Shown here: positions 26,975 through 35,290 of the stretch, one piece after another | Position numbering within the stretch: the stretch's first letter is position 1 | How the letters are laid out: every line of letters begins with the position of its first letter | Assembly (NCBI RefSeq): GCF_005930495.1 | Contig: NZ_SJEX01000015.1 | Coordinates: 1-64,000 of the forward strand | Reading direction: 5' to 3' | From: Modestobacter excelsi | GTDB lineage: Bacteria; Actinomycetota; Actinomycetes; Mycobacteriales; Geodermatophilaceae | DNA: 64,000 nt | The notes under the pieces: model-generated | What the model was told of the DNA's origin: nothing | The model's input: the letters and a program-made list of their open reading frames with translations, nothing else | Database searches by the model: none | Program-made: the position numbers and the translations under genes

Positions 26975-27154
26975 CAGGAAGGGCCCAGCACGTCACCGCG
27001 CTCGACAGCGGCACCCGGCACGAGGGCAATCGTCCCGGGACCGTCCGCTGTGGCTGGCCGCAGTGCGGGCCTGGGACGATGATCGGGACAAGCGTCGCCC
27101 GTGTCGCCCCCACCCACCGCCCCGGTGGCCGGGAGCGCCGGACCAGGAGGAGCC

Positions 27155-27997
27155 ATGCCGAACCCGTTCGTGAAGCTGTGGAAGTACCTGACGGCCTCGG
27201 CCAACCAGCAGATCGACCAGCGGGCCGACCCGAAGATCCAGATCGCCCAGGCGATCGAGGCGGAGCAGAACCGGCACCAGTCGCTGGCCAACCAGGCCGC
27301 GGCGGTCCTGGGCAACCAGCGGCAGCTGGAGATGCGGCTCAACCGCCAGCTCGGTGAGGTGGAGAAGCTGCAGTCCTCGGCGCGCCAGGCGCTCGCCCTC
27401 GCCGACCAGACCCGGGCCAAGGGCGACGAGGCAAAGGCCTCGGAGTACGAGCAGGCCGCGCAGGCCTTCGCCACCCAGCTGGTCAGCGCCGAGCAGGCGA
27501 TGGAGGACCTCAAGCGCAGCCACGACGAGGCGCTGCAGGCCGCCGAGCAGGCCAAGGGGGCCGTCGAGACCAGCCGGATGCGGCTGCAGTCGACCCTGGC
27601 GGAGCGGACCAAGCTGCTCTCCCAGCTGGAGCAGGCGAAGATGCAGGAGCAGGTCTCCTCCTCGCTGCGGCAGGTCAACGAGCTCTCCGCGCCGGGCAAC
27701 ACCCCGTCGCTGGGCGAGGTCCGCGACAAGATCGAAGCGCGCTACGCCAACGCGCTGGGCCAGGCGGAGCTGGCGCAGAACTCGGTGGAGGGCCGCATGC
27801 TCGAGGTGCAGAAGGCGACCATCGACGTGCAGGGCGCCTCCCGGCTCGCCGAGATCCGTGCGGCCATGAGCGGCGGCACCCCGGCGATCAGCGGCAACCA
27901 GGCGGCCGGCGCCCTCGAGCAGGGCACCCCGCCGGTGACCGGCCTCGGCGCCGAGACCCCGGCCGCCCAGCCGGCGGAGCGGCCCGACCCCGCCTGA
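27155..27997 (+). CDS. pspA: PspA/IM30-family envelope-stress protein
   Basis: A 280-residue coiled-coil protein of the phage-shock family that binds and stabilises the inner membrane. The N-terminal amphipathic segment ([14 protein letters not shown]) is followed by a long alpha-helical domain (residues about 25-220) and a disordered Gly/Pro/Ala tail. The ATG has AGGAGG 4 nt upstream. In mycobacteria pspA directly follows clgR; here about 10 kb of sugar genes and pgi lie between them. A convergent hairpin separates it from the nei gene. Confidence 0.92.
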
Positions 27998-28063: not shown

Positions 28064-28915
28064 TCAGGTGGCGGCGAGCGACGCCGGGTGGCCGGGCTCC
28101 CCGGTGCGGGCCAGCGGGTCGATCGGGCTGCGCGCGGCCTGGCACGTCGGGCACCAGTAGGTCACCCGTTCCTGGGTGTCCGGACCCTGGTCGCCCAGCA
28201 GGATCGGAGTGCGGCAGCGGCGGCACGGCCGGCCCTTCCGGCCGAACACCCAGTGGTCCTCCCCGCGCCGGGTGGAGCCGGTCGTGCTCTGCTCGGGGTG
28301 GTCGCGGTTGGCCTGCATCAGCGTGCGGGCCCGGGTGACCAGACCCGGCAGGTCCGGGACGTCGGCCACCCGGGTCCAGGGGTGGGTGCGCGTCAGGAAC
28401 AGCGTCTCGACCTTGTACAGGTTGCCGATGCCGGCCAGGTTGCGCTGGTCGAGGACAGCGACGCCGATCTGCTCGTCGGGGTGCGCGCGGAGCCGGCGCA
28501 GCGCCTCGTCGAGGTCCCAGTCCGGTCCCAGCACGTCGGGACCGAGGTGGCCGACCAGCTCGTCCTCGGCGCTGGTCGGGACGATCCGCATGTCGTGCAG
28601 CCGGTAGCCGACGCACTCCCACTCGTCGGAGGCCAGGACGGCCCGGATGCTGTGCCCGGGACCGCCCTTCCACGGGGTGCCCGTGCGGTAGATGTGCCAG
28701 CTGCCGTCCATCCGGAAGTGCGTGCGCAGCGTGCGGCCGTCGGCGAAGCGGGTGAGCATGTGCTTGCCGCGGGGCACGACCTCGGTGACGGTCGCGCCGG
28801 CGAGGTCGACGGTGGCCAGCTGCGGCACGCGCAGCTCGCCCTTGGTGAGCGTGGCGCCGGCCAGCGCGGTGTTCATGCGTCTGGCGGCCAGCCAGACCGT
28901 GTCTCCCTCGGGCAT
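28064..28915 (-). CDS. Nei/Fpg-family DNA glycosylase, copy A
   Basis: A formamidopyrimidine/endonuclease VIII-type bifunctional glycosylase/AP lyase for oxidised bases. It has the catalytic N-terminus MPEGDT (Pro2, Glu3), Lys51 in RGKHML, the helix-two-turn-helix DQRNLAGIGNLYKVE and a C-terminal zinc finger with CRRC and CPTC pairs. All key residues are intact over 283 residues. It is followed 64 bp upstream by a close paralogue in tandem. A -10-like GATCAT ends 6 nt before the ATG. Closest to actinobacterial Nei2 by overall appearance. Confidence 0.93.
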   Translation of the reverse strand: MPEGDTVWLAARRMNTALAGATLTKGELRVPQLATVDLAGATVTEVVPRGKHMLTRFADGRTLRTHFRMDGSWHIYRTGTPWKGGPGHSIRAVLASDEWECVGYRLHDMRIVPTSAEDELVGHLGPDVLGPDWDLDEALRRLRAHPDEQIGVAVLDQRNLAGIGNLYKVETLFLTRTHPWTRVADVPDLPGLVTRARTLMQANRDHPEQSTTGSTRRGEDHWVFGRKGRPCRRCRTPILLGDQGPDTQERVTYWCPTCQAARSPIDPLARTGEPGHPASLAAT

Positions 28916-28979
28916 CTGGCCATGATCCCCGTCCACGTCCGCTCGTGCCGACCTGGTGCCGCGGGAGCGGGCCCGGTCG

Positions 28980-29834
28980 TCACGGGTGGCGGGCGCGGCG
29001 CGCCTCGGTGCCGGGCTCACCGGTGCGTGCCCGCGGATCCACCGGTGCAGGGGTGGCCTGGCAGGAGGGGCACCACCAGGTGATCCGCTCCTGCAGGTCG
29101 GGGCCCTGGTCGCCGAGCAGGATCGGCGTCCGGCAGCGGCGGCACGGCCGGCCCTTCCGACCGGCGACCCAGTGGTCCTGACCGTGGCGGGTCTCGCCGG
29201 TGGTGCTCTGCGCGGGGTGGTCGCGGTTGGCCAGCATCAAGGTGCGGGCCCGGGTGACCAGCCCGCCGAGGTCCGGCACGTCGGCGACCCGGGCCCACGG
29301 GTTCACGCCGGTCAGGAACAGGGCCTCGACCTTGTACAGGTTGCCGATGCCGGCCAGGTTGCGCTGGTCGAGGACAGCGACGCCGATCTGCTCGTCGGGG
29401 TGCGCGCGGAGCCGGCGCAGCGCCTCGTCGAGGTCCCAGTCCGGTCCCAGCACGTCGGGACCGAGGTGGCCGACCAGCTCGTCCTCGGCGCTGGTCGGGA
29501 CGATCCGCATGTCGTGCAGGCGGTAGCCGACGCACTCCCACTCGTCGGAGGCCAGGACGGCCCGGATGCTGTGCCCGGGACCGCCCTTCCACGGTCTGCC
29601 CGGGCGGTAGATGTGCCAGCTGCCGTCCATCCGGAAGTGCGTCCGCAGGGTCCGGCCGTCGGCGAGGCGGGTGAGCATGTGCTTGCCGCGGGGCACGACC
29701 TCGGTGACCGTCGCGCCGGTGAGGTCGACGGCGGCCAGCTGCGGCACCCGCAGCTCACCCCGGCGCAGCGTGGCGCCGGCCAGCGCGGTGTTCATCCGCC
29801 GGGCGGCCAGCCAGACGGTGTCTCCCTCGGGCAC
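28980..29834 (-). CDS. Nei/Fpg-family DNA glycosylase, copy B
   Basis: Tandem paralogue of copy A with the same architecture: catalytic Pro2 and Glu3, RGKHML, an identical DQRNLAGIGNLYKVE helix-two-turn-helix, and CRRC/CPSC zinc pairs. The start must be GTG 29834, because the enzyme needs proline directly after the initiator; an ATG 9 bp upstream would block it. A -10-like GACCAT lies 7 nt before that GTG. The core of the gene is almost base-for-base identical to copy A while both ends differ. It has 284 residues. Confidence 0.93.
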   Translation of the reverse strand: MPEGDTVWLAARRMNTALAGATLRRGELRVPQLAAVDLTGATVTEVVPRGKHMLTRLADGRTLRTHFRMDGSWHIYRPGRPWKGGPGHSIRAVLASDEWECVGYRLHDMRIVPTSAEDELVGHLGPDVLGPDWDLDEALRRLRAHPDEQIGVAVLDQRNLAGIGNLYKVEALFLTGVNPWARVADVPDLGGLVTRARTLMLANRDHPAQSTTGETRHGQDHWVAGRKGRPCRRCRTPILLGDQGPDLQERITWWCPSCQATPAPVDPRARTGEPGTEARRARHP

Positions 29835-29971
29835 GACGACCATGGTCCCCGGCGGAGCCGCTCAGCGCCCGGACCCTCCCGGTGACCGGTCCCCGGAGGG
29901 GCGGCCCCGCTGTGAGCGGGGAGACAACCGGGAACAGCTCGAGGTCCGCCGGTGCTCACGTGCCCGTGACC

Positions 29972-30550
29972 ATGTCGACGCGTCTGCGCAGCCTCACCAG
30001 CGCCCCGGCCCCGCAGCCGGTCGCGGAGCCCGTGACGGTGACCGTCGCCAGGGTGGTGCACCCGCCTCAGCAGGCGGCCTTCGAGCGCTGGGCGGCCGAG
30101 ATCCAGGAGCTCCTGGCCAGCTTCCCGGGCAACCTCGGTTCCTCGCTGCTCCGCCCCGGTCCGGGCAGCGACGAGTTCCACCTGGTCTTCCGCTTCACCG
30201 ACGACGAGGCGCTCAGCGCTTGGGAGCGGTCGCCGGAGCGGGCCGAGGCCCTCGCCCGGGTGCACCAGCTGGTCGAGGACTCGCGCACCGCCCGTGCGGT
30301 CGGCCTGGAGAGCTTCTTCGCGGTCCCGCCCGAGCCCGGTCCGGCCTGGCGCAGCTGGGTCCTCACCGTCGCCGTCGTCCTGGCGATGACCACGACGTTC
30401 CAGCTGGTCGCGGTGCCGTTCGTGGGCAGCTGGCCCTGGGGCCTGCGGCTGCTGCTGTCGGCGGTCTACGTGGTCACCGCGCTGCGCCTGCTCATGCCGC
30501 GGCTCAGCCGCCGGTTCGGACCCTGGCTGCAGGGCTCCCGCCGCCGCTGA
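29972..30550 (+). CDS. ABM-like (antibiotic biosynthesis monooxygenase-type) membrane protein
   Basis: The N-terminal half (residues about 17-115) resembles a ferredoxin-like ABM dimer domain: VTVTVARVVHPPQQAAFERW, then FHLVFRFTDDEALSAWERSP. The C-terminal half has two membrane segments (WVLTVAVVLAMTTTFQLVAV and LRLLLSAVYVVTALRLLM). Fusions of this kind occur among predicted heme- or quinone-related proteins, but I do not assign a reaction. The start is uncertain between ATG 29972 and GTG 29966. It ends 15 bp from the convergent lhr gene. Confidence 0.75.
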   Translation: MSTRLRSLTSAPAPQPVAEPVTVTVARVVHPPQQAAFERWAAEIQELLASFPGNLGSSLLRPGPGSDEFHLVFRFTDDEALSAWERSPERAEALARVHQLVEDSRTARAVGLESFFAVPPEPGPAWRSWVLTVAVVLAMTTTFQLVAVPFVGSWPWGLRLLLSAVYVVTALRLLMPRLSRRFGPWLQGSRRR

Positions 30551-30565: not shown

Positions 30566-35200
<4,635 letters not shown>

Positions 35201-35207
35201 GTCCCCC

Positions 35208-35213
35208 AGTGTC
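35208..35213 (-). promoter_or_regulatory. -10-like element (GACACT) of lhr
   Basis: GACACT on the minus strand ends 7 nt before GTG 35200, followed by a run of five G residues. Confidence 0.4.
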
Positions 35214-35290
35214 CACGCGGGTACGACAGTCTGCCGGTGCCCGCGCAGGTCAGCTGGACGAACCGACACGTCGACATCTCGCTCGCGACG

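Follow-up and report, generated by a model that had tools for sequence, protein, structure and literature searches.

The window, a 64,000-nt stretch of a Modestobacter excelsi contig (NZ_SJEX01000015.1) from a draft genome (G000; 5.26 Mb, 178 contigs), carries two complete Nei/Fpg-type genes that lie head to tail on the minus strand, with copy B upstream of copy A (Table 1). A head-to-tail pair of such genes had been given in a preliminary description of the DNA. The Pfam domains Fapy_DNA_glyco and H2TH score above the curated cut-off in both copies. The neighbouring helicase gene was named lhr from its own sequence and from the lhr-nei2 arrangement described for mycobacteria in PMC11323726. 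The neighbourhood was surveyed in 30 loci picked by us. An lhr match was found on the same strand upstream of nei2 in 29 of them (exception L059), and a pspA match downstream of nei2 also in 29 (exception L118). In 22 of the loci, an ABM match stands in the gap from lhr to nei2. The remaining loci of the 30 examined, L056 (M. lapidis), L052, L081, L065, L070, L090, L113 and L118, have no ABM match in the lhr-nei2 gap. Where present, the ABM ORF separates nei2 from lhr. The spacer between the stop codon of copy B and the start of copy A ranges from 33 to 166 nt across the 15 tandem pairs described below.

Copy B has two candidate starts, as a longer frame opening with an ATG nine bases upstream of the GTG reaches 29843. 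The GTG is favoured because the matching ATG of copy B in the relative G005 lies eight bases upstream and is out of frame, and because the GTG start places a Pro at position 2, a residue reported in PMC11323726 to be required for the AP lyase activity of Nei2. Upstream of copy B, positions 29910-29939 resemble CTGTTCCCGGCTGTCGCCCCACTCACA on the minus strand, and similar stretches occur in many pair genomes. This stretch could serve either nei2 or the divergent ABM ORF; the alignment of the relatives' upstream regions yielded no assignable promoter.

Table 1. Features of the nei2 locus, with positions counted from the first base of the window.
Feature	Position	Strand	Description
PspA/IM30-family gene	27101..27997	+	Pfam PF04012; conserved neighbour on the other side
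nei2-like copy A	28064..28915	-	Downstream copy, 283 aa, ATG start; open frame
Copy A, codon 174 to stop	28064..28396	-	C-terminal part differing between A and B; fixed differences, 3' trees
Copy A, codon 224 (Phe)	28244..28246	-	Aligned to Phe230 of E. coli Endo VIII
Converted tract, copy A	28406..28675	-	Codons 81-170 (codon alignment 241-510); 269/270 bases as in copy B
Spacer	28916..28979	-	64 nt, copy B stop to copy A start
nei2-like copy B	28980..29834	-	Upstream copy, 284 aa, GTG start; open frame
Copy B, codon 174 to stop	28980..29315	-	C-terminal part; clusters with Klenkia
Copy B, codon 224 (Ala)	29163..29165	-	Aligned to Phe230 of E. coli Endo VIII
Converted tract, copy B	29325..29594	-	Identity to copy A; tree and AU tests
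ABM-domain ORF	29882..30550	+	Pfam PF03992; between lhr and nei2, opposite strand
lhr-type helicase gene	30566..35269	-	Open frame; conserved neighbour

Seven NCBIfam models were matched, and the best for both copies was Nei2 (NF040775), with 271 bits for copy A and 263.7 bits for copy B, neither reaching the curated cut-off of 400 bits. Both proteins have Pro2, Glu3 and Lys51 as well as CxxC motifs at 231 and 255, in line with the preliminary statement that the catalytic and zinc residues are kept, and both copies thus have the N-terminal Pro-Glu, the catalytic Lys and the four-cysteine zinc site of the Fpg/Nei superfamily. Judged by their sequences, the two are lhr-linked and Nei2-like, not certified Nei2 proteins. 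A structure was predicted for copy A only (mean pLDDT 80.3). The model is weak at residues 210-221, which adjoin residue 224 (pLDDT below 50), and the local geometry there was not used.

At an E-value of 1e-60, two matches to these genes were obtained in 15 of 23 Modestobacter genomes, one in seven and none in one; the 15 with two matches all belong to the 18 genomes with a completeness of 90% or more. All 15 pairs are adjacent and head to tail. The family set comprised 112 genomes, and in the 89 that lie outside the genus no close pair was found at this threshold. Five of these, all from other genera (G034, G039, G048, G088, and G110), have a distant second Nei2-like gene of 50-51% identity at another place, and three have no match. 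The record L087, labelled Bacillus sp. AZ43 (UNVERIFIED_ORG), contains a nei2 of the Geodermatophilaceae kind with 77% identity, and the label looks wrong. In a tree of lhr and pspA, the 15 pair genomes form one clade of 17 genomes (100/99) together with two single-copy ones, G014 and the uncultured Modestobacter 2B2-61. Five other single-copy Modestobacter stand beside the pair clade with weaker support (83/81), and Klenkia and the genus g5 fall outside. The pair is thus widespread in the genus, neither absent nor single in all relatives. Given this distribution and the 17-genome clade, the tandem pair is older than the identical tract that its two copies share in the window.

This tract had been described as 195 bp of identity between 28406-28600 and 29325-29519, followed after one mismatch by another 74 bp. 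Both runs are exact at an offset of 919, the second covering 28602-28675, and the sole mismatch within 28406-28675, at 28601, is silent, as it falls on the third position of a codon for Arg. The core had also been called sharply bounded. This is correct for the border at the 3' side of the gene, where divergence climbs to 12-35% per 60 nt, while the border at the 5' side is softer (3-15% per 60 nt). The window copies differ by 0-2% per 60 nt in four windows of codons 81-160, and their divergence along the genes is uneven, not uniform. For the pair of M. altitudinis the same codons differ by 0-3% per 60 nt. There was no sign of GC-biased conversion in the window pair, GC3 being 0.956 in the tract of both copies and 0.936-0.975 in the flanks.

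A tract of this kind could be held alike without recombination by strong constraint, acting on the protein or through an overlapping signal. In support of this, codons 121-173 have the fewest amino-acid differences in all of the 11 group comparisons apart from those of A with A and of B with B, in which they rank among the lowest. However, the 13 remaining pairs differ by 2-35% per 60 nt in codons 81-160, and at fourfold-degenerate sites of codons 121-173 the difference is 0 in the window pair and 0.32 between A and B copies of different genomes, making constraint on its own a highly improbable cause. The core of one or both copies might instead have come from another species, as related tracts exist in relatives, the best of which matches at 95.2%. 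Against this source, which we consider improbable, the closest of the 60 sequences in the comparison is the sister copy (99.6%).

Trees were inferred for the core (codons 85-174) and for the flanks, the 5' flank being represented by codons 1-83, and groupings were evaluated with AU tests. The core tree joins the two window copies, WIN_A and WIN_B (100/97). It also joins the two copies of M. altitudinis, with lower support (85/88), and a single A clade is rejected (p 0.006). Both flanks, on the other hand, reject the grouping of WIN_A with WIN_B, with an AU p of 0.003 in the 3' flank and 0.029 in codons 1-83. The A copies form a clade with 2B2-61 and G014 in the 3' flank tree (99/98) and with 2B2-61 in the tree of codons 1-83 (99/90). 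If the whole gene had been duplicated in tandem recently and its ends had then diverged fast, one would expect adjacent copies with a protein identity such as the 88-89% seen here. This explanation would not agree with the presence of the pair in 15 of the 23 genomes of the genus or with the separation of the window copies in both flank trees, and we give it hardly any credence, as had been argued in the preliminary description. On the basis of the flank trees, the silent sites and the match to the sister copy, respectively, we set aside recent duplication, constraint alone and an outside origin of the core.

In a GENECONV-like permutation test (30 sequences, 435 pairs, 2000 global permutations), the run of 84 polymorphic sites in the window pair was reached in 0 of 2000 permutations (global p 0.0005). 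The pairs of M. altitudinis and G005 were also globally significant (p 0.0005 and 0.02, respectively), and that of G003, a one-contig genome, had a pairwise p of 0.0015 and a global p of 0.25. When only silent sites were used, of which there are just 120, the window pair had a pairwise p of 0.006 (global 0.92) and M. altitudinis of 0.001 (global 0.60), and none was globally significant. The identity could also be an assembly or consensus artefact, in which short reads of one copy were written into the other; the window genome is a draft in 178 contigs, and 195 bp may exceed the length of short reads. Yet a similar tract with different borders is present in the separate assembly of M. altitudinis, and the same-genome signal is seen at the pairwise level in the single contig of G003, leaving an artefact quite unlikely. 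Taken together, gene conversion between the two window copies, as originally proposed, is well supported by the trees and the permutation test.

Conversion does not seem to be restricted to the window. M. altitudinis has its own 174-nt identical run, the borders of which are unlike those of the window. The cores of the two genomes differ by about 5% and the two copies within each genome are nearly alike, from which we infer that homogenisation continued in both lines after their split. Recurrence among the 15 pairs was assessed by shuffling the A-B partners and comparing same-genome with other-genome A-B distances. Copies from the same genome were closer to each other in codons 1-60 (p 0.0024), 61-120 (p <0.0001), 121-173 (p <0.0001), and 174-230 (p 0.0016), and no such closeness was found in codons 231-284 (p 0.99). 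Codons 1-173 taken whole gave p <0.0001, both with and without the window and M. altitudinis, and codons 174-284 pooled gave p 0.09. After removal of the window and M. altitudinis the p values of the five blocks were 0.02, 0.0003, <0.0001, 0.007, and 0.92, and after removal of three further near relatives 0.042, 0.020, 0.0008, 0.037, and 0.92. Conversion thus looks general in the clade, with only the tail of about 54 codons clearly free of it. The same-genome excess in codons 174-230 indicates, however, that the C-terminal third has not escaped conversion entirely.

The direction of exchange was considered at eight diagnostic sites of the tract that distinguish A from B in ten farther genomes. 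In the window, the two copies alike show the A state at seven of the eight sites, and copy B of URHA31 has it at all eight; one of the sites, nt 408, is in the A state in 14 of the 14 sequences shown. As the B copy of URHA31 is of A state at all eight sites, A-type sequence had probably passed into B before the origin of the window line. For the same reason, the reading of the latest window event as a transfer from A to B was dropped.

Two genomes of the pair clade have a single nei2 gene. In 2B2-61, an intact A-type copy is accompanied by an upstream remnant of a second nei2 (L088 3539-3928, query residues 144-285, 59% identity). The genome of G014 is 80% complete. In its nei2 gene (L060 2851-3702, on the same contig as L132), 15 of the 21 diagnostic sites as far as nt 530 are of B type, and of the 37 sites from nt 531 onwards 27 are of A type, eight of B type and two of neither. 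The gene resembles a hybrid with a B start and an A end, which could be left by a deletion through recombination between the copies. The mosaic is not clean, and the tree does not place its 5' part with B; the gene may also be an early-branching single gene or the contig may be chimeric. No second copy could be recognised in the 842 nt that separate nei2 from pspA in G014; the matches obtained there were short and weak (E at least 0.01), and tblastn with copy B gave none.

In the tree of the 3' part, B clusters with Klenkia and g5 (100/99) and A, more weakly, with the single-copy Modestobacter (73/93). AU tests of this part gave p values of 0.48-0.55 for the monophyly of B, for that of Klenkia, and for that of Klenkia with g5. 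Uniting A, B, G014, and 2B2-61 in a single clade gave p 0.067 and a lnL lower by 40 in the 3' part, and p 0.44 in codons 1-83. These trees are consistent with either of two origins of the pair: a duplication that predates the genus, followed by reciprocal loss, or a B tail from a Klenkia-like source. Given the clustering of its C-terminal part, the B half may even stem from such a source.

The differences between A and B are concentrated in the C-terminal part. Defining fixed or near-fixed differences by a frequency overlap of at most 0.1, 21 residues distinguish A from B, two of them in codons 1-173 and 19 in codons 174-283. Between A and the five single-copy Modestobacter, 8 of 17 such differences lie in codons 1-173 (Fisher p 0.023 against 2 of 21). 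However, Klenkia and the single-copy Modestobacter also differ mostly in the tail, with 5 of 18 differences in codons 1-173 and 13 in 174-283, so that generally faster change of the tail, not protection alone, may account for part of the pattern. At residues 176-177, each of the 15 pairs has Arg-Thr in copy A and Gly-Val in copy B, and residue 176 is Gly in 70 of 72 single-copy loci.

In all 15 pairs, copy A has Phe and copy B has Ala at residue 224, which aligns with Phe230 in the damaged-base pocket of E. coli Endo VIII. The states of residue 224 were counted in 87 of 87 loci, the four distant outgroup loci L118-L121 having been excluded beforehand; the 72 single-copy loci have Tyr in 37, Ala in 20, and Phe in 15, and a quick tree indicated at least eight changes between Ala and an aromatic residue. 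Together with residue 253, the combinations in the single-copy loci, counted without regard to kinship, are Tyr-Tyr (36), Ala-Trp (20), Phe-Trp (14), Phe-Tyr (1), and Tyr-Phe (1). Among the pairs, B is Ala-Trp in 15 of 15, and A is Phe-Tyr in 14 and Phe-Trp in one. Since the pairs have a single common ancestor, the residues fixed in all 15 count as one event that was kept, not as 15.

We consider it very probable that the locus is an old lhr-linked, Nei2-like tandem pair in which the middle of the genes has been converted recurrently and two C-terminal types have been retained. Homologous recombination between copies 919 bases apart equalises the middle part, which in the window spans codons 81-170, and would act along most of the gene. 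The C-terminal third, which runs from just behind the H2TH motif through the loop before residue 224 and the zinc finger to the end of the tail, stays different. In this scheme, selection would remove those conversions that overwrite the C-terminal differences. The shared N-terminal and core part would be interchangeable between the copies. Conversion itself is demonstrated by the tests above; from the fixed C-terminal residues we infer that A and B may differ in lesion preference, binding different lesions or DNA contexts, hence the selection for both types. A bolder version, 'one engine, two heads', appears to us possible but rather doubtful. According to it, conversion equalises the N-terminal and core part and selection separates the pocket and zinc-finger halves for different lesions beside Lhr, for example crosslink adducts and oxidised pyrimidines, the heads being Phe224 with Tyr253 (14 of 15) in A and Ala224 with Trp253 in B.

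Compared with the preliminary description, the present analysis adds that conversion appears recurrent in the clade, that the genes are lhr-linked and Nei2-like, and that the C-terminal difference is tied to fixed residues. The pair points at residues that may set lesion choice, and the 15 genomes offer a natural series of core exchanges. Members of the Geodermatophilaceae tolerate drying and radiation. Both kinds of tolerance are reported for one Geodermatophilus in PMC4119925. Among the Modestobacter and Geodermatophilaceae papers listed by searches of the open-licence part of PubMed Central, no title or abstract start dealt with this nei2 pair.

Among solved structures, the closest relative is Nei2 of the M. 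smegmatis lhr-nei2 operon (PDB 8tjg). It is the top match by sequence (E 6e-57) and also comes first when the copy A model is compared by structure (Z 26.3, rmsd 2.5, 244 residues aligned, 40% identity). It shares with A and B Pro2, Glu3, Lys51, the tetracysteine site and an adjoining lhr gene. According to PMC11323726, it has AP lyase and 5-hydroxyuracil glycosylase activity and a role in the repair of psoralen crosslinks, and lhr-nei2 was described there, only recently, as a unit of crosslink repair in bacteria. The Modestobacter locus differs in having two copies, an opposite-strand ABM ORF between lhr and nei2, and a tail of about 23 residues past the last aligned residue, and its genes score under the curated NCBIfam cut-off for Nei2. 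E. coli endonuclease VIII (Nei) has the same fold as the copy A model (2oq4, Z 23.3) with 29% identity over the model, and has the N-terminal Pro-Glu, the Lys and the zinc finger in common with both copies. At the place of its Phe230, copy A is alike (Phe) and copy B unlike (Ala). As described in PMC5448014, Phe230 is part of the damaged-base pocket and contacts the 5' phosphate, and its change to Trp slowed only the final, delta-elimination step.

For the process itself, two precedents can be compared. Long-lasting concerted evolution of prokaryote paralogues, with recurrent homogenisation in many species, is described in PMC6053082 for tuf, ammonia-oxidation, and methylamine and methyl-transfer genes. 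These are unlike the repair glycosylases studied here, and the words 'glycosylase' and 'repair' are absent from the main text of that paper. The closer parallel is provided by the release factors. Conversion between the RF1 and RF2 genes, as presented in PMC4530459, took in nearly all of domain 3, the function of which is common to both, in two cases of opposite direction, and the parts that govern stop-codon choice remain distinct. As in the nei2 pair, conversion is limited to part of the gene and another part stays different; unlike in the nei2 pair, the proteins belong to another family and the functions of both copies are known. The nei2 copies are adjacent in all 15 pairs. The genes for RF1 and RF2 are not known to form a tandem pair. 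The process was thus known already, and the nei2 pair is a tidy, fresh case of it that comes with a testable idea at the level of single residues.
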